Source: Microcaldota archaeon
Lineage (GTDB): Archaea > Micrarchaeota > Micrarchaeia > Micrarchaeales > CABMGC01
Direction: 5' to 3'
DNA length: 34,644 nucleotides
NCBI GenBank assembly: GCA_027345185.1
Contig: DAHWIK010000018.1
Location: 1 to 34,644, forward strand
Below are positions 6,696 through 15,399 of the stretch, piece by piece (the stretch's first letter is position 1; every line of letters begins with the position of its first letter). The translations under genes were made by a program, and so were the position numbers. Below the pieces are notes generated by a model. It was not told where the DNA came from, ran no database searches, and worked only from the letters and a program-made list of their open reading frames with translations.

Positions 6696-7844
6696 ATGGG
6701 CTTGTCACAAGATTCTATCACGCTTTTCAAGAGGGAACTCTTCATCTTTAAGGCCAATCTCAGGACAAACATAATCAGGTCGCTGATATTCCCACTGGTC
6801 ATAATAATCTTCTTCGGAAACATAGGGACGAGCATAAGGAATGTTCCAATAGCTGTAGTAAACTATGCAAACAATGCCCAGTCGCTGCAGTTCCTAAACA
6901 GCCTCCAGGCAGAGCAGACACTTTACATACTATCATCTTCAAACGAGCAGAGCGCACTGAGCCAGCTGCAGCTAGGCAACGTGCAACTTGTTGTTGTCAT
7001 ACTGCCAAATTTCCCCAGCCAGAAATCAGGCGTGCCTGGCGTGCAGGTCTACTACTCAAACACGCAGCCTACAGTAATAAGCGGCGTTCTGCCAATAATA
7101 ACCAGCGACGCGCATTATTTCGGAGGCGTATCCACTGCAGGAAGCATTGGAGGATCACCGGCAAGCAGTCCTTCCCAGCCGGTGCTGAAAACAACCAGCG
7201 AGATATCATCAAACGCCTTGTATTCAACTACATCCAACTACCTGACTTTCCTAACCGGAGGCCTGCTCGCAATGGTGGTGGTATTCTCTGCTCTATTCGG
7301 AGGAGGGGTGGCGTACCTGTCCGACAAGCAGCTGGGCATCATAAAGGCGTTCCTTATAACCCCCATAAACAAGAATGCAATAGTGATCAGCAGGATGCTT
7401 ATCAGTTCGCTACAGGGTCTAATAGCCGCAGTCATAGCACTATTGATAGGCATGGCACTTGGAGTGACGCTGGCTATGGGAATCACTGCCGTCCTGTATA
7501 TAATAGTTGTGGTTGTCATAATAGGGCTTGGCTTCGGGGCTCTTTCAATGGTCGTGGCCTCGAAGGTAAAAAGAGTCGATGCATATACCATATTTGCGCA
7601 GGCTGTAGGTCTTCCACTATGGTTCATATCCGGAGGGATAACTCCTATCGAGAGCCTGCCATCCTGGCTTGCCCCGGTGTCCGCCATAGATCCGCTGACA
7701 TACGCAACAAACATAAACCGTGCAGTGATAATGCAGGGATTCATATCTACTGGCCAGCTAGTAACAGACATGAGCGTGCTGCTTATATTCACTGGCATTC
7801 TGACCTTGCTGGCATTCAAAACATTCAAGTCGACAATAGAATGA
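6696..7844 (+). CDS. ABC-2 type exporter, permease
   Basis: 382 residues with ABC-2 permease topology. One membrane helix sits near the N-terminus (LIFPLVIIIFFGNIG). A long extracytoplasmic domain of about 130 residues follows (Ser/Gln/Pro-rich, including VQVYYSNTQPTVISG). Five further helices come after it, beginning FLTGGLLAMVVVFSALFGGG. The conserved C-terminal half reads LWFISGGITPIESLPSWL and IDPLTYATNINRAVI, as in DrrB-like transporters. It pairs with the ATPase that ends one base upstream. The substrate (drug, lipid or surface component) cannot be told. Confidence 0.9.
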   Translation: MGLSQDSITLFKRELFIFKANLRTNIIRSLIFPLVIIIFFGNIGTSIRNVPIAVVNYANNAQSLQFLNSLQAEQTLYILSSSNEQSALSQLQLGNVQLVVVILPNFPSQKSGVPGVQVYYSNTQPTVISGVLPIITSDAHYFGGVSTAGSIGGSPASSPSQPVLKTTSEISSNALYSTTSNYLTFLTGGLLAMVVVFSALFGGGVAYLSDKQLGIIKAFLITPINKNAIVISRMLISSLQGLIAAVIALLIGMALGVTLAMGITAVLYIIVVVVIIGLGFGALSMVVASKVKRVDAYTIFAQAVGLPLWFISGGITPIESLPSWLAPVSAIDPLTYATNINRAVIMQGFISTGQLVTDMSVLLIFTGILTLLAFKTFKSTIE

Positions 7845-7848
7845 AGAA

Positions 7849-7857
7849 TTTTATACT
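7849..7857 (+). promoter_or_regulatory. TATA box for the CARDB-like gene
   Basis: TTTTATACT is centred about 26 bases before ATG 7879. The gene can therefore be transcribed on its own as well as from the exporter operon. A GGTGA ribosome-binding-like sequence also lies at 7870-7874. Confidence 0.5.
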
Positions 7858-7878
7858 AAGATAATATTTGGTGAAAAA

Positions 7879-9459
7879 ATGAAATATAGGTACGCTCTTG
7901 CAGCGGTTATGTTGCTGTCTTTGGTGCAGCTGTTCGGCAGTGTGAATGCACAGGCTAATGCGCTATCGATAGCGAACTTGGATGTCACGCCGCAGCCAGT
8001 CATTGCTGGAAGCAACATAACGATATCGTTCCAGCTATACAATGCATATACCGCAGAGCTCACTAACGTGAATCTTGAGCTCGAAGGATCGTATCCGCTT
8101 CTCAACTATTCGCCAGCTGGCACGCAGCTCATAACAAATATACCAACAGGAATATACGGCGGAACAACGCTCATAACATACAGTCTGCACATACCAAAGG
8201 ATGTAAAATCAGGCACATACTCCCTGACCCTTGTTGCGGAATACCAGACCGAATCAGGCTCCTCAACAGAGGAAACCGCGACTTCTACCATGCCAATATC
8301 ATTCTACATAAGGGGGTCTCCGAACCTCAAGCTTACTGCCAATCCATCTTCAGGGATATCTCCAGGAGCTCAGTCCACAGTGGCTCTTGACGTGCTTAAT
8401 GTAGGTACTGGCAATGCAACAAATGCAAGCGTAACGGTATTGAACTCCAAAAACTTCAGCGTTCTTGGCGGGCCAACATTCAACCTGGGTACCATAGCAC
8501 CGCAGGCAACCGCAACGGCAAGCGCAATACTCCTTGCAAACTCCACGCTCCTTCAAGGTACGCCTGAGCTTCCTGTGATAGTGCGATACAACACGCCTTA
8601 CGGATCGAATTCATATTATGAGCAGATGGTTCCAGTGAGCGAATCTCTCGGCGCGCCACAGATCGGCGTGGGCATAGAGAGCGCGTCTCCAGAATCGCTG
8701 TATCCAGGAACAAACCAGACCCTGATGCTATCGCTCCAGAACATAGGCAGCGGAACTGCAAAGAATGTCACAGTGTCAGTGGTAGGAAACGACAACATAA
8801 CTGCAGGAAACTCGGCATCAAGCGTATTTGTGGGAACCATAGCCGCAGGATCCGATGCAACTGCCTCTCTATTCATAACTGCCAACAGGGGAGATGACAG
8901 GAGCAAATACAACCTGCCTGTTTATCTGAGCTACCAGAATGCAAACTACAACGCCACTTTCAACAGGACCGTCATGCTGCCGATAGTCCTGCAGCCAATC
9001 GCACAGTTCAATGTAACTGGCAGCGTATCAAATCTCTCCGCAGGTGGCACTTACGTGCCCGTGACGCTGAAAGTGAGGAACACAGGCAACGAAGCAGCGC
9101 AGTCGGTAACCTTCAGCCTGCAGACAATATACCCAGTGTCACAGGTGAATCCAAATGCATACCTGGGTTCATTGCTTCCAGGGCAGACTGAAAATGTGAC
9201 GTTCTATGTGAACGTCGATTCGTCAGCAAACAACGGCCAGTATCCGGTAACCCTTTATGAGCAGTGGTCCCAGCCAACCGGAGGAAACAACCAGCAGTAT
9301 TCCAGCTCGCAGACCTACTACGTGGATGTTGGCGGGTCCCGCGGATCTGGGCTTACCACATACATAATAGGTGCAGCGGTCGTCATAGCTGTGGTTGTTG
9401 TTGCACTAAGGAGAATGAAGAGGCAACAAGCATCCACAAAGAAGGAGAAGAAGCAGTGA
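7879..9459 (+). CDS. Secreted CARDB/S-layer-like repeat protein with C-terminal membrane anchor
   Basis: 526 residues. A signal peptide is visible (ALAAVMLLSLVQLFGSVNA, cleavage near residue 27). About four Ig-like beta-sandwich repeats follow, each with a LxNxGxxxAxNVxV-type strand: LDVLNVGTGNATNASVTVL, LSLQNIGSGTAKNVTVSVV and LKVRNTGNEAAQSVTFSL. These match the CARDB/NPCBM-associated (COG1361) archaeal surface protein family. Many NxS/T sites suggest N-glycosylation. It ends in one membrane helix (TTYIIGAAVVIAVVVVAL) and a basic tail. It lies 34 bases after the exporter permease; such proteins are often neighbours of ABC-2 exporters, possibly acting as an extracytoplasmic partner. Confidence 0.85.
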   Translation: MKYRYALAAVMLLSLVQLFGSVNAQANALSIANLDVTPQPVIAGSNITISFQLYNAYTAELTNVNLELEGSYPLLNYSPAGTQLITNIPTGIYGGTTLITYSLHIPKDVKSGTYSLTLVAEYQTESGSSTEETATSTMPISFYIRGSPNLKLTANPSSGISPGAQSTVALDVLNVGTGNATNASVTVLNSKNFSVLGGPTFNLGTIAPQATATASAILLANSTLLQGTPELPVIVRYNTPYGSNSYYEQMVPVSESLGAPQIGVGIESASPESLYPGTNQTLMLSLQNIGSGTAKNVTVSVVGNDNITAGNSASSVFVGTIAAGSDATASLFITANRGDDRSKYNLPVYLSYQNANYNATFNRTVMLPIVLQPIAQFNVTGSVSNLSAGGTYVPVTLKVRNTGNEAAQSVTFSLQTIYPVSQVNPNAYLGSLLPGQTENVTFYVNVDSSANNGQYPVTLYEQWSQPTGGNNQQYSSSQTYYVDVGGSRGSGLTTYIIGAAVVIAVVVVALRRMKRQQASTKKEKKQ

Positions 9460-9499: not shown

Positions 9500-10303
9500 A
9501 TGGATGCCACAATAGGAATAATCGGCGGTTCAGGTCTGTACTCCCTCATTGACAACGCCGATGATGTTGCGGTAGAAACTAAGTACGGTAAGCCCAGCGA
9601 CGTGATATCTATAGGCACGCTTGCAGGTGTGAAGGTGGCATTCCTCCCAAGGCATGCAAAGAAGCACACAATACCGCCGCACAAGGTTCCGTACAGGGCA
9701 AACATAGCTGCACTCTCACAGCTAGGGGTGAACAGGATAATCGCAACAAACGCGGTCGGTTCGCTGAAGCCCGAGTACAAGCCAGGATTCCTCGCGCTAT
9801 TCGACCAGTTCGTCAACGCAACGAGCGGCAGGAACGATACATTCTTCGATGAGGACATTGCGGTGCACGTGAGCTCTGCGGATCCATACTGCCCGCAGCT
9901 GAGGAATATTGCGTCAGTCGCTGCAAGAAAGGCAGGCATACCAATTCATGAAACCGGAACAGTGGTTGTAATAAATGGTCCAAGATTCTCATCAAAAGCC
10001 GAATCAAGGACATTCGCGGCCCAGGGTCACCATATGATTAACATGTCTCAGTACCCCGAGATAATGCTTGCTAGGGAGAAGCAGATGTGCTATCTTGGTG
10101 TCGCACTCATCACTGACTATGATGCAGGCCTTGAAGGCAGGCTGGACATAAAGCCTGTCACGAACGACGAGGTTGTCAGGATATTTGGAGAGAATGTCGA
10201 TAAGGCAAAGAGGATAATCACAGAAGTTATAAAGAACACGCCTCAGGAGAGGACATGCAGCTGCTCGAAGTCCCTTGAAGGGGCTTTAATGACAAAGAAG
10301 TAG
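9500..10303 (+). CDS. mtnP: S-methyl-5'-thioadenosine phosphorylase
   Basis: 267 residues, normal length for the trimeric MTAP group of purine nucleoside phosphorylases. It splits 5'-methylthioadenosine with phosphate into adenine and 5-methylthioribose-1-phosphate. Visible motifs: phosphate loop IGIIGGSGLY (residues 5-14), LPRHAKKHTIPPHKVPYRAN, the NAVGSL strand, NGPRFSSKAESR, and the substrate motif MINMSQYPEIMLAREKQMCY, with ITDYDAG. The C-terminal CSC pair resembles the structural disulfide of thermophilic archaeal MTAPs. MTIP or guanosine-preferring relatives are possible. The next two genes supply later steps of the same salvage route. Confidence 0.92.
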   Translation: MDATIGIIGGSGLYSLIDNADDVAVETKYGKPSDVISIGTLAGVKVAFLPRHAKKHTIPPHKVPYRANIAALSQLGVNRIIATNAVGSLKPEYKPGFLALFDQFVNATSGRNDTFFDEDIAVHVSSADPYCPQLRNIASVAARKAGIPIHETGTVVVINGPRFSSKAESRTFAAQGHHMINMSQYPEIMLAREKQMCYLGVALITDYDAGLEGRLDIKPVTNDEVVRIFGENVDKAKRIITEVIKNTPQERTCSCSKSLEGALMTKK

Positions 10304-10306
10304 AGC

Positions 10307-10924
10307 CTATTTTCCTTTAGGGTGCTTCAGATAAAGCTCCTCAATGTGCCTTATGTGTAGTTTTTTCACCATGTACTCGAAATACTCGACCCTGTCAAGC
10401 GCCTTCTGCATTGTCTCACCAACTCCAACAGTGCCATGGTTCTCCATTATGACGACTCTTGCTCCATCCTTAACCGCCTTTGCAACCGCATTTCCTATCT
10501 CTACTGTACCGGCCTTCATTATCCCCACCGATGCGGCCTTTGTCACGTAATAGCCGTATTCCTCATCGCTCTTAGAGACTTCATCAATCACCCTATCTGC
10601 CCCAAGTGCGCTTATCACGCCCATAGAGTAAGGTGAGTGCGGGTGCACCACGGCGTTGATCTCAGGCAATATCCTATATATTCTGGTGTGCACATGATAC
10701 TCTGAAGACTGCTTTGGGCCTTCGACCAGTCTTTCCGAATCTATGTCCATAATGGACAGTTCAGGGACGTCTATCCTTGCCTTGTCAAGCCCGCTTGGAG
10801 TTATGACCATCCTGTCCTTTCCGACCCTGAAGCTCACGTTTCCAGAAAGCGTGCTGTTCATCCCCTTAGAATATAGCCTGTTGGTCACGTCAAGAACTGA
10901 CCTGCCGGCATCATCTGCGTTCAT
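10307..10924 (-). CDS. Class II (zinc) sugar-phosphate aldolase, FucA/MtnB-like
   Basis: About 205 residues, covering the whole class II aldolase domain. Motifs: phosphate-binding SGNVSFR and TPSGLDK, catalytic Glu in SSEYHVH, zinc ligands in VVHPHSPYS, and the third ligand His in ENHGTVGVG. A TTG start at 10975 is possible, but a TATA box at 10945-10953 lies exactly 25 bases before ATG 10924, so the shorter leaderless form is preferred. Family members cleave L-fuculose-1-P, ribulose-1-P or methylthioribulose-1-P, or dehydrate methylthioribulose-1-P. Between mtnP and mtnA the likely substrate is 5-methylthioribulose-1-P or the deoxy analogue, giving DHAP. Substrate is inferred from context. 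Confidence 0.85.
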   Translation of the reverse strand: MNADDAGRSVLDVTNRLYSKGMNSTLSGNVSFRVGKDRMVITPSGLDKARIDVPELSIMDIDSERLVEGPKQSSEYHVHTRIYRILPEINAVVHPHSPYSMGVISALGADRVIDEVSKSDEEYGYYVTKAASVGIMKAGTVEIGNAVAKAVKDGARVVIMENHGTVGVGETMQKALDRVEYFEYMVKKLHIRHIEELYLKHPKGK

Positions 10925-10944
10925 GATTGAATCTGCCTGAGCAC

Positions 10945-10953
10945 CTATAAAAG
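10945..10953 (-). promoter_or_regulatory. TATA box for the aldolase gene
   Basis: CTTTTATAG on the minus strand is centred 25 bases upstream of ATG 10924. It decides between that start and the TTG at 10975. Confidence 0.55.
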
Positions 10954-10986
10954 TCTTGCTCTGTTCCGATGTCAAGGCAAAGATTA

Positions 10987-10998
10987 TTATATATAAAA
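10987..10998 (+). promoter_or_regulatory. TATA box for mtnA
   Basis: TTATATATAAAA is centred about 29 bases before ATG 11022. Its near-symmetry means it could also fire toward the aldolase gene. Confidence 0.5.
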
Positions 10999-11021
10999 TG
11001 AGAATTTAGATCGGGGATCCT

Positions 11022-12128
11022 ATGTCTAATGTGTCCACAAGTGTTGTGCCGATAAGATGGGATGACGATAAGGGAGAGATAGCCTGGCTGGACAATGCGC
11101 AGATTCCCTGGAAGGAGGTCAACGTCTCTTCAAAAAGCCTTGACAGGCTGATAAAGGCCATACAGTCGCTTGAGATAAGGGGGGCACCGATACTCGGAGA
11201 GGCCGGCGCATACGGCACTGCAATGATAGCAAATAACTCTCCGGACTCAAGGGATGCGATACTGAAAAACGTAACTGAGCATGGCCAGAGGCTCGCGGCT
11301 GCAAGGCCCACAGCAGTAAATCTTAGCTGGGGAGTAAAGAAGGTACAGGATGTAATAACCGAAGAGATAGGAAGGGGTGCAAGCCCAAAGGAGATAAAGA
11401 ATGCTGCAATAACCGCCGCGAAGAAGATACAGGAGGACAACATCTCAGCCTCATACAAGATAGGCGCTAACGGAAAACACCTCATACATGATGGCGACGT
11501 ATTAGTTACCGTATGCAATGCAGGCACGCTCGCATGCGATGGATTGGGCACCTCGACAGCACCAATGAGGGCAGCACATGCGGATGGGGTAAAGTTCAGG
11601 GTGCTCACGACCTATACTGCACCCCTGTACCAGGGAGCAAGGCTTACTGCATGGGAGCTTCACAAGGACGGCATAGACGTGCGTGTAATAACAGACAACA
11701 TGGCAGGGCATCTTATGAGGGAGGAGAAGGCAACAGCCGTATGGGCTGGGGCAGACAGGATACTAGGCAATCGTTCCAAGGAGAGCGGCTCTACCTATAA
11801 CAAGATAGGCACGTTCGGACTTTCACTTATTGCACGTGGGCTAGGAGCAAAGATGTACGTTGCAGCTCCGACTTCTACAATAGATCCTGTGCATAAAATA
11901 GCAGATGTAAAGATAGAGCAGAGAAAGCCTGAAGAAGTCGAGACTTTGCTTGGAGGGACCACCGTAGTGCCAAAAGGCGTAGGCGTAATCAATCCGGCAT
12001 TTGACAGGACTCCTCCGGATTACGTGTCTGCCATAGTAACAGAGCTTGGAGTAGTGACTGCACCTTACGACATATCAATACCCAAGCTTCTGGAAAATCC
12101 GGACAGCATGGTGAAGCTTCCAAAATAA
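11022..12128 (+). CDS. mtnA: Methylthioribose-1-phosphate isomerase (aIF2B-like fold)
   Basis: 368 residues, normal for MtnA. It converts 5-methylthioribose-1-phosphate to 5-methylthioribulose-1-phosphate. Motifs: LEIRGAPILGEAGAYG, SWGVKKV, catalytic Cys in TVCNAGTLA, catalytic Asp in ITDNMAGHLM, GADRI, YNKIGTFGLSLIA, PTSTID and INPAFDRTPPDYV. Archaeal ribose-1,5-bisphosphate isomerase shares this fold and many motifs and is the main alternative. Position beside mtnP and a class II aldolase favours MtnA. It is divergent from the aldolase across a short AT-rich promoter region. Confidence 0.87.
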   Translation: MSNVSTSVVPIRWDDDKGEIAWLDNAQIPWKEVNVSSKSLDRLIKAIQSLEIRGAPILGEAGAYGTAMIANNSPDSRDAILKNVTEHGQRLAAARPTAVNLSWGVKKVQDVITEEIGRGASPKEIKNAAITAAKKIQEDNISASYKIGANGKHLIHDGDVLVTVCNAGTLACDGLGTSTAPMRAAHADGVKFRVLTTYTAPLYQGARLTAWELHKDGIDVRVITDNMAGHLMREEKATAVWAGADRILGNRSKESGSTYNKIGTFGLSLIARGLGAKMYVAAPTSTIDPVHKIADVKIEQRKPEEVETLLGGTTVVPKGVGVINPAFDRTPPDYVSAIVTELGVVTAPYDISIPKLLENPDSMVKLPK

Positions 12129-12985: not shown

Positions 12986-14224
12986 TTACAGTTTTATTTT
13001 GTTGTAGAGGCCCTCAAAGAACCTCTCGCACTCCTCGAGCCTTCCAGCCTTCATCACAACGAACTCGCCGTCCTTAGCTCCAAGTACATCCTTCACGTAT
13101 TTTGATTCGTCGTGTATGGCTTCATAGGCGTCTGTGTAGACCCTGGCTATCTCCTCATCCTTTGTGAAACTGTTCACGTGTCCGGCGTACTGGTTATCAA
13201 GCTTGACAGCCAGTATCCTCCCACCGTCCTTTATTGTAGCGTTTATACCCACCTCTCCAGTATTCGAGAATATGCCAGTGACGTCGAATATCGCCATATG
13301 CCTTATATTGCCCTCCTTGTTGCTTGCAAGGTATCTGCCTCCGACTTTGTCAAAGCTCTGTATGAGTATTCCTGCTCCTGCAAGCAGGGCTATCGCTATG
13401 TAGTACGGCTGTATCGCTTCGCCAAGGAAGAGGTACGCGAGCAAGAAAGTTATGAACGGCGAGAAAAAGTAGACGTTCGCGACTACGGTTGCCTTTATCG
13501 GCCTGAGCGAAGTGAAGTAAAGGTAGAAGCTGAAGACGTTGAAGAACGCGCCTATGTAAGCCAGCACCGAGAGCTGCGGAGTGGTCATAGCGTAAAGCGG
13601 GAACCCGTTGACTGCCATCAGTACCGCGAAGAGGGCGAACATCGTAATAGATGATATTGCTATGACTACTCCTATGTCGAAAACGTACTTCTTTATCAGT
13701 ATTATTGACAGCGCATATCCCAGAGCCATTAATATTAAGAATATGATTATGCCTGCGTTGCTGCTCTGCAATATCCCTGTGAGATTGCCTCCGCTTATGC
13801 CTATGTACAATCCTGCAAACGCCATAACCAGTGCGGCTATCTGGTACTTCGATAGCCTCTCCCTAAGCAGTGGAGGAAGCAGCAATAGCATCAGCAGCGG
13901 AGAGGTCCTGAATATCGCAGTCGCCAAAGAGGCAGTGATGAACTTCTCGGAGAAAGCTATGCCGAACTGTACCGGGAGGTAACTTACCAGTCCAGTAAGG
14001 CATATTATTGCAACCTTCCTCCTATCCTTCAATATCTTAGACAGCTCGCCCAACTTTCCCCTGTAAGCGAGAAATGCCAATGATGTGACTACAGAGACTG
14101 CATATACGCCGAAGAAGAACTCGTAGATGTTTGCGCTCGTGGATACAGTAAGCAGTATCGGAAGCATGGCTCCGGATACCAGCGTTATCACAAGCATTGC
14201 ATAAGCCTTGCCCTTCATGTCCAT
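12986..14224 (-). CDS. EamA/DMT-family transporter with an extra C-terminal soluble domain
   Basis: 412 residues. About ten hydrophobic helices fill residues 1-295 in two EamA-like halves (for example AFSEKFITASLATAIFRTSP in the first and FYLYFTSLRPIKATVVANVY in the second), typical of drug/metabolite or amino-acid exporters. An extra ~115-residue hydrophilic domain follows from about residue 298. It contains MAIFDVTGIFSNTGEVGINA, ILAVKLDNQYAGHVNSF and GEFVVMKAGRLEECERFFE. Ordinary EamA proteins are near 300 residues, so this tail is unusual; I do not recognise it. It is divergent from an Lrp-like regulator with separate TATA boxes, and may be controlled by it. Confidence 0.85.
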   Translation of the reverse strand: MDMKGKAYAMLVITLVSGAMLPILLTVSTSANIYEFFFGVYAVSVVTSLAFLAYRGKLGELSKILKDRRKVAIICLTGLVSYLPVQFGIAFSEKFITASLATAIFRTSPLLMLLLLPPLLRERLSKYQIAALVMAFAGLYIGISGGNLTGILQSSNAGIIIFLILMALGYALSIILIKKYVFDIGVVIAISSITMFALFAVLMAVNGFPLYAMTTPQLSVLAYIGAFFNVFSFYLYFTSLRPIKATVVANVYFFSPFITFLLAYLFLGEAIQPYYIAIALLAGAGILIQSFDKVGGRYLASNKEGNIRHMAIFDVTGIFSNTGEVGINATIKDGGRILAVKLDNQYAGHVNSFTKDEEIARVYTDAYEAIHDESKYVKDVLGAKDGEFVVMKAGRLEECERFFEGLYNKIKL

Positions 14225-14245
14225 GTTTTAACATTGCCCCTCGTG

Positions 14246-14254
14246 CTTTAAATA
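14246..14254 (-). promoter_or_regulatory. TATA box for the EamA transporter
   Basis: TATTTAAAG (minus strand) is centred 26 bases before ATG 14224, consistent with a leaderless transcript. Confidence 0.55.
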
Positions 14255-14304
14255 CCATACAAAAATTTACAAATTTATGATAATGTCCTGTTATTTTGCT
14301 ACAG

Positions 14305-14314
14305 TATTAAAAAC
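14305..14314 (+). promoter_or_regulatory. TATA box for the Lrp-like regulator
   Basis: TATTAAAAAC is centred 25 bases before ATG 14335. Confidence 0.55.
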
Positions 14315-14334
14315 CTTCCACATGATATACTGTT

Positions 14335-15399
14335 ATGGATGAGTCAGAGTACAACTTCGAGAGCAAGTTTGACGACGATTTCAGCCTGCTCACGAGGAAG
14401 ATGGTACGCCTTATATCCGAGGATTCAAGAATATCCATACTTGAGCTCTCAAAGGAGCTCAGCGTGTCAAGAAGGACTGTGAGGGAGAGGCTTTTAAGGG
14501 TGGAGAAGGAGCTCGGGATAGACTACACGGTGGAGTTCAACGAGAGTGCGCTGAAGCTTTCCAACCCGCACCTTATACTTGCAAAGTTCACCAAGAAGCC
14601 TGAATGGAATGAGGTCTCAAGGCTTCTAGCATCCTCGTATATACCACAATTCGCTGCCAGCATAAAGGGGAAGTACGACCTTCTCATATACGCCAATGCA
14701 GCAACGAGCGGCGAGTACGTGCACTGGGACAAGAGCATGCAGATAATGCTCTCAAAGTACGGGGTCTCATGGCACCCTTCAGACGTGGCACACAAGCAGC
14801 TCGGATACTTCCCGATGAGGAATGAGTTGATAGACAAGCTGGACATGGACCAGCAGCACAAGGACATGCTCAAGCTCCTCAATGGCAATTCAAGGATTAC
14901 GTTCAGCGAGATATCTAAGAAGATAGGGATGCACTTCAACACCGTTGCATACAACTTCAACAAGCTGGTCGATTCAGGGATAATAAAGAGGTTCACTATA
15001 TCCACAAGGCCGCCAAAGGACCTGACAAGGATGTCCTTCTTCAGCAAGTACATCCTGTCTGAGAGGTTCGAGGAGGACGCATCCAGGATAAGGAAGGTCT
15101 ACACCACAAGCGGTACGGATTATCCGATATTCAACAGGTATCTTGTTTGTGCGCAACTGGTCGGCAGCTATGACTTCTTCAACATGAGCATATTCGACAA
15201 CTATGAGACTGCCTACAAGCAGGCGATATTGCAGTACAAGGACGTAATGAAGAGGCACAAGGTCAGGGTCGATTACGGTCAGGTGGACAACCTGCTTCTC
15301 GGGAGATGGCCAATAAGGAGCATAGATACAAAGAGGGAGTACAACACCATAAAGTGGACGCTGCCTTCCGACGTGTCCAACAATGGACCAGTGTTATAA
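14335..15399 (+). CDS. Lrp/AsnC-like regulator with two helix-turn-helix domains
   Basis: 354 residues. The first HTH covers about residues 20-60 (MVRLISEDSRISILELSKEL, then SVSRRTVRERLLRVEKELGI). A second HTH covers about 180-225 (LLNGNSRITFSEISKKIGMH, then FNTVAYNFNKLVDSGIIKRF). Each is followed by an alpha/beta region, as in duplicated Lrp-type proteins. Usual Lrp proteins are about 150 residues, so this is a tandem form. It probably binds DNA as a regulator of transport or metabolism. The divergent EamA transporter is the natural candidate target. Ligand and target are not shown by the sequence. Confidence 0.8.
   Translation: MDESEYNFESKFDDDFSLLTRKMVRLISEDSRISILELSKELSVSRRTVRERLLRVEKELGIDYTVEFNESALKLSNPHLILAKFTKKPEWNEVSRLLASSYIPQFAASIKGKYDLLIYANAATSGEYVHWDKSMQIMLSKYGVSWHPSDVAHKQLGYFPMRNELIDKLDMDQQHKDMLKLLNGNSRITFSEISKKIGMHFNTVAYNFNKLVDSGIIKRFTISTRPPKDLTRMSFFSKYILSERFEEDASRIRKVYTTSGTDYPIFNRYLVCAQLVGSYDFFNMSIFDNYETAYKQAILQYKDVMKRHKVRVDYGQVDNLLLGRWPIRSIDTKREYNTIKWTLPSDVSNNGPVL

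Follow-up and report, generated by a model that had tools for sequence, protein, structure and literature searches.

The three genes considered here lie side by side in a stretch of DNA of 34,644 nucleotides (contig DAHWIK010000018.1; hereafter the window) from a Candidatus Micrarchaeota genome of 0.92 Mb, which is assembled in 49 contigs and is 83% complete. They encode the S-methyl-5'-thioadenosine phosphorylase MTAP, or MtnP (positions 9500-10303, plus strand), a class II aldolase of the FucA/DrdA type, predicted to be a 5-deoxy- or 5-methylthio-ribulose-1-phosphate aldolase (10307-10924, minus strand), and the S-methyl-5-thioribose-1-phosphate isomerase MtnA (11022-12128, plus strand). A preliminary description of the window had named these three functions, and they have been confirmed by the models TIGR01694, PF00596 and TIGR00512, respectively. 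It had also called the genes a compact cluster. They are indeed adjacent, but the aldolase gene is on the opposite strand, on which that description did not comment, pointing towards MTAP and away from MtnA, and this excludes a single three-gene operon; what remains is a gene neighbourhood, in which the aldolase and MtnA look divergently transcribed and MTAP and the aldolase convergently. The open frame of the aldolase is limited by a TTG at 10975, but translation probably starts at the ATG at 10924, because the closest relatives begin there and the TATA-like element CTATAAAAG (plus-strand reading; 10945-10953, minus strand) lies about 25 nt upstream of it. A second TATA-like element, TTATATATA (10987-10995, plus strand), precedes the ATG of MtnA by about 30 nt, so that two elements, counted by hand and each a match to the consensus only, point apart between the two genes. 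In G044 and G036, which together with G035, G037 and G042 represent the same genus, CTATAAAAG recurs at a like place and TTATATATA is near-identical.

The phosphorylase scores 288.3 bits with TIGR01694 (cut-off 274.85) and stays under the cut-off of the methylthioinosine phosphorylase model (199 bits against 223); its best match in the PDB is the MTAP of S. solfataricus (2a8y, 248 bits). A second MTAP-family phosphorylase, 37% identical to the first, is encoded elsewhere in the genome (G000:C8:1985-2698). MtnA passes TIGR00512 with 301.5 bits (cut-off 279), and its best PDB match is 1t9k (241 bits). Could this protein be a ribose-1,5-bisphosphate (R15P) isomerase of an AMP pathway, lying beside AMP phosphorylase or RuBisCO in relatives, as the preliminary description had considered? 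It falls far short of the R15P isomerase model TIGR00511 (148.8 bits against a cut-off of 314.1), and it is the sole PF01008 protein in its genome. In our sample of the family, 79 genomes with the present one included, R15P isomerase-like paralogues adjoin RuBisCO in five other genomes, MtnA being present as well in two of them. We rejected an R15P isomerase on the model cut-offs and on these pairs, no search for AMP phosphorylase having been made; judged by its scores, the window isomerase is MtnA.

The aldolase scores 131.4 bits with PF00596. A profile of 16 micrarchaeal aldolases gave up to 113 bits for PDB chains of FucA, 97.5 for DrdA, 58.5 for AraD and 47.5 for MtnB/APIP. In the 16-row alignment residues N29, S73, S74, E75, H94, H96 and H163 are invariant, and, matched by motif, they align with N29, S71, S72, E73 and the three metal histidines of FucA; N29, S71, E73 and Y113 of FucA as functional sites are consistent with the titles of mutant PDB entries. 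The catalytic position is E as in FucA, whereas AraD carries D there. We take the FucA histidines, the counterparts of H94, H96 and H163, to be metal ligands; zinc as the metal, named in the preliminary description, is an assumption. For B. thuringiensis DrdA, the accessible part of PMC6079011 reports activity with Mn. An AlphaFold2 model of the aldolase, made from a 28-row alignment (pLDDT 93.3), was most similar in VIA-align to DrdA (6btd/6btg; Z 26.7, root-mean-square deviation 2.1-2.2 over 188 residues), with Z values of 25.9 for FucA, 23.2 for RhaD, 21.8 for AraD and 21.2 for MtnB.

Is it possible that this protein is instead MtnB, the methylthioribulose-1-phosphate dehydratase, and that the genes start classical methionine salvage? 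It belongs to the same PF00596 superfamily, and the MtnB model TIGR03328 gives 79.9 bits; this is, however, under the cut-off of 137.05, and MtnB trails FucA in the profile comparison and DrdA in the structural one. The protein is also the only PF00596 member found in its genome. Among the enzymes of classical salvage, the acireductone dioxygenase MtnD (PF03079) was found in none of the 79 genomes, although the positive control worked, and RuBisCO-type genes are absent from the genome of the window; neither MtnC nor MtnW as such was among the searches. On bit scores, structure and the absence of MtnD we rejected the MtnB identity, which we regard as very improbable. The preliminary description had seen no MtnK, MtnB-C-D or RuBisCO-like gene in the window, and for RuBisCO, MtnD and a second class II aldolase this now extends to the whole 83%-complete genome; MtnK and MtnC were outside the searches.

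The association of the three genes recurs among relatives. The window-type aldolase occurs in 18 of the 79 family genomes and MTAP-like matches in 55, while MtnA-like matches were found in 33, of which 29 were kept after four weak ones (G003, G004, G024, G026) had been dropped as paralogues. All 18 aldolase genomes contain MTAP and 16 contain MtnA (Fisher p = 3e-7, kinship ignored); if any PF00596 protein over the cut-off is counted, MtnA is present in 24 of 28 such genomes (p = 1.5e-11, kinship likewise ignored). Gene linkage in relatives, which had been suggested as a check, bears out the neighbourhood: in 14 of the 18 genomes no more than 2.5 kb separates the aldolase from MtnA or MTAP, and in 13 no more than 150 bp, the linkage in G035 being counted from two contigs. 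The linked genomes show at least five arrangements. The layout of the window, with MTAP and the aldolase convergent and the aldolase and MtnA divergent, is shared by G044, G036 and G035 (on its two contigs); MTAP and the aldolase are on one strand in G042; the aldolase is divergent from MtnA with MTAP beyond in G013, G057, G077 and G078; on one strand, the aldolase precedes MtnA in G028 and G071 and follows it in G061 and G023; and a Kelch gene stands in between in G027. The aldolase also adjoins MtnA in G185, from another family of the same order, and in a named collection six of seven Micrarchaeota aldolase loci are linked to MtnA or MTAP. Since the neighbourhood recurs and the genes co-occur, the association of MTAP, aldolase and MtnA is real and more than chance.

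What might these enzymes do together? We consider it probable that they form a shunt of the MtnP type to dihydroxyacetone phosphate (DHAP), which would convert methylthioadenosine (MTA) or 5'-deoxyadenosine to adenine, DHAP and an aldehyde. With phosphate, MTAP would cleave MTA from polyamine synthesis, 5'-deoxyadenosine from radical S-adenosylmethionine (SAM) enzymes, or both, to adenine and 5-methylthio- or 5-deoxy-ribose-1-phosphate. MtnA would isomerise the sugar phosphate to the ribulose-1-phosphate form, and the aldolase, with E75 as the catalytic residue and H94, H96 and H163 as metal ligands, would split this to DHAP and (methylthio)acetaldehyde or acetaldehyde. DHAP could then enter central metabolism via triosephosphate isomerase. 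This predicted activity, already favoured in the preliminary description, is the reading best supported by gene identities, recurrent linkage, active-site residues, fold, and the presence and absence of genes; the substrates, the direction, the metal and the fate of the aldehyde we infer. The genome of the window contains SpeD, six radical-SAM matches and triosephosphate isomerase, and its gene inventory leaves the shunt as the best explanation.

Several observations nevertheless weigh against the DHAP shunt. In the window the strand layout means that the aldolase is not co-transcribed with MTAP and MtnA. The aldolase is unlinked in four of its 18 genomes (G024, G037, G048, G072), two of which (G024, G072) have no MtnA, and five of the 29 MtnA genomes have no PF00596 protein. 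A tie to polyamine synthesis through SpeD failed, as SpeD and the aldolase show no association (SpeD is present in 14 of 18 genomes with the aldolase and in 51 of 61 without it); the four aldolase genomes with no SpeD match (G027, G028, G061, G077) fit 5'-deoxyadenosine as the substrate, and equally fit incomplete genomes. Furthermore, the aldolase reaches no NCBIfam equivalog cut-off, the models for FucA, MtnB, AraD, ribulose-1-phosphate aldolase and OtnC all scoring far below theirs, FucA is tied with DrdA as its structural match, and Foldseek puts YgbL first. None of the 59 loci from outside Micrarchaeota in the named collection, mostly from Planctomycetota and about 23-33% identical for the longer matches, has MtnA or MTAP on the flanks examined, and these loci give no hint of function.

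Some of these points would suit an aldolase whose substrate is a different sugar phosphate or acid, such as fuculose-1-phosphate or 3-oxo-tetronate-4-phosphate, and which neighbours MtnA by coincidence or for an unrelated reason: in structure, FucA and YgbL resemble it about as closely as DrdA does, and the bacterial relatives lack the MtnA linkage. Recurrent linkage and co-occurrence with MtnA speak against it, however, as do the FucA and OtnC scores, and the neighbours scanned include no fucose or tetronate gene, although no dedicated search was made. We think that such an unrelated substrate is improbable.

The trees also count against a simple equation with the known shunt enzymes. In them the micrarchaeal aldolases are a separate clade (support 100/99), while E. 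coli Ald2 and DrdA group with FucAs outside it. E. coli Ald2 pairs with the FucA of the same species, with which it shares 58% identity, against 26% with the window aldolase; DrdA pairs with S. pneumoniae FucA (54% identity), and the window aldolase is 29% identical to the DrdA stretch. These trees were computed without the Ald2 proteins of R. rubrum and R. palustris, DrdA and S. pneumoniae FucA being represented by partial sequences, and the tree with DrdA leaves out eight divergent rows (five from other members of the order and three of the G046 type). As Ald2 and DrdA each pair with a different FucA, the known DHAP-shunt aldolases look recruited more than once, and the failed clade test therefore makes it less likely that the window aldolase is an Ald2, not that it works like one.

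The main rival to the DHAP shunt is a ribose-1-phosphate route. Could the genes serve nucleoside or ribose catabolism, in which the phosphorylase would free ribose-1-phosphate from common purine nucleosides, and this would be isomerised to ribulose-1-phosphate and cleaved to DHAP and glycolaldehyde, as a shorter version of the haloarchaeal non-carboxylating pentose bisphosphate pathway? According to the accessible text of PMC9700705, the haloarchaeal ribulose-1-phosphate aldolase is a DHAP-making FucA homologue, and in part of PMC6302742 the phosphorylase and isomerase of M. jannaschii are described as promiscuous. A PfkB/ribokinase-like kinase lies beside MTAP in G013 (L108:11613-12527), G067 (L086:5925-6899) and G073 (L222:1-687), and it could feed or drain a sugar-1-phosphate pool. 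In the window, however, no kinase adjoins the genes, both MTAP and MtnA pass MTA-specific cut-offs, the ribulose-1-phosphate aldolase model gives 66.7 bits against a cut-off of 300, and an R15P isomerase is missing as described above. This route appears unlikely to us. Another possible fate of the MtnA product is the synthesis of aromatic precursors through 6-deoxy-5-ketofructose-1-phosphate, a route that has been suggested for 5'-deoxyadenosine in M. jannaschii (as quoted in the accessible parts of PMC6079011 and PMC10986504). It would involve 3-dehydroquinate synthase II (PF01959), which is absent from the 83%-complete genome of the window and was found in one of the 79 family genomes, the M. 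jannaschii control being positive. With PF01959 lacking in the other 78, we rejected this route and give it hardly any credence.

In some relatives the MtnP-MtnA core is found with other partners. In G046 and G047 a different, divergent class II aldolase stands between MTAP and MtnA, with all three genes on one strand, and such an aldolase adjoins MTAP in G054. A PF00596 protein and a HAD hydrolase precede MtnA in G041, and in G126 and G229, from other families of the class, another class II aldolase adjoins MtnA. A RuBisCO-like protein (RLP) takes this place beside MtnA in G067 (L086:2732-4021) and G070 (L083:10013-11276, in two frames) and beside MTAP in G073 (L222:1492-2784). The G067 protein scores 518 bits against the Chlorobium RLP (1tel/1ykw) and 476 against R. 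palustris RLP2 (2qyg), whereas MtnW gives 148 and archaeal RuBisCO chains 193 at most. With that of G058 (L223:3-1268), the Photo-type RLPs are 68-80% identical to the G067 one and lie beside MtnA and/or MTAP in three of the four genomes. A YjbQ-family gene adjoins the RLP in G067.

Among the 29 MtnA genomes, 16 have the window-type aldolase, four a different class II aldolase next to the core (G041, G046, G047, G054), two an RLP (G067, G070) and three a PF00596 protein elsewhere (G011, G012, G050); in the other four (G049, G052, G066, G075) none of these partner enzymes was found. When possession of the window-type aldolase is mapped on an MtnA tree that includes 25 micrarchaeal rows, it changes at least four times on well supported branches. 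The isomerase itself seems to have been exchanged between lineages: the window MtnA is 80-84% identical to those of G041, G070 and G047 and 64-67% identical to those of G035, G036 and G044, whereas the window MTAP and aldolase are closest to G035, G036 and G044. The simplest reading of the swapped enzymes is that all of them act on the MtnA product. Perhaps, then, the core was kept while the product-consuming enzyme was repeatedly exchanged, for an aldolase clade of its own independent of Ald2 and DrdA, for other class II aldolases, or for a Photo-type RLP, which would then act on 5-methylthio- or 5-deoxy-ribulose-1-phosphate; we offer this tentatively, as a possibility that we would not yet call probable. 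In the accessible part of PMC5893883 the Photo RLP of R. palustris has a negligible role in MTA metabolism and its deletion leaves its role open, and the archaeal linkage is therefore a lead to an unknown function.

Other genes accompany the neighbourhood. An ABC-2 permease and a CARDB-domain surface protein (6696-9459) lie directly upstream of MTAP, and such genes adjoin MTAP in many relatives, including G038, where the family-genome searches found neither MtnA nor a class II aldolase; MTAP thus has a second conserved neighbourhood. On the other side, next to the cluster, an EamA-type transporter and a regulator with a double Lrp-type helix-turn-helix are mutually divergent (12986-15399), and genes of these families are also near MtnA in G035, G037, G041 and G042.

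If our interpretation is correct, the DHAP shunt reaches beyond bacteria into DPANN archaea with small genomes, several independent recruitments supplied its aldolase step, and these archaea have a means of clearing inhibitory MTA and 5'-deoxyadenosine while regaining adenine and DHAP. The exchange of the partner gene among the relatives would also give a testable lead on the function of the Photo-type RLP. The pathway itself is known, mainly from bacteria. What is new, as far as our searches went, is the DPANN setting, an aldolase clade that stands apart from FucA, E. coli Ald2 and DrdA, and the exchange of the partner. Among the matches listed, no paper dealt with MTA salvage by Micrarchaeota, which does not prove that none is in print, and a term search of the main text of two Micrarchaeota genome papers (PMC12892359, PMC5864196) found neither "methylthio" nor "polyamine".

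How does the window compare with known systems? The mtnA regions of Klebsiella, Pseudomonas and Streptomyces show no neighbour annotated as MtnB or aldolase, and the corresponding stretch of S. meliloti carries no annotation. Of the archaeal systems, that of M. jannaschii resembles the window in using a phosphorylase and an isomerase for both MTA and 5'-deoxyadenosine (PMC6302742, accessible part), but its proposed outcome is an aromatic precursor, for which the window genome lacks PF01959. The haloarchaeal pathway likewise begins with a phosphorylase and ends with a FucA-type aldolase and DHAP (as far as PMC9700705 is accessible), but it needs ribose-1-phosphate kinase, R15P isomerase and ribulose-1,5-bisphosphate phosphatase, and the window genome has no R15P isomerase. 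E. coli, with mtnK-mtnA-ald2, shares MtnA and a DHAP-making class II aldolase (PMC10986504, in part) and differs in its use of a nucleosidase and a kinase. The DrdK-DrdI-DrdA system of B. thuringiensis, for 5-deoxyribose salvage, combines an isomerase with a FucA-type aldolase that is the best structural match of ours, although the window aldolase belongs to another clade; DrdA cleaves 5-deoxyribulose-1-phosphate, and clusters of three genes, with either MTAP or a kinase as the third, are reported from six bacterial phyla (PMC6079011, accessible part). Finally, in R. rubrum and R. palustris MtnP, MtnA and Ald2 convert 5-methylthioribulose-1-phosphate to DHAP and 2-(methylthio)acetaldehyde (available portion of PMC5893883). 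This DHAP-ethylene or DHAP-methanethiol shunt is bacterial and serves sulfur salvage via 2-(methylthio)ethanol, but like the window it joins a phosphorylase, MtnA and a class II aldolase and is free of a kinase.

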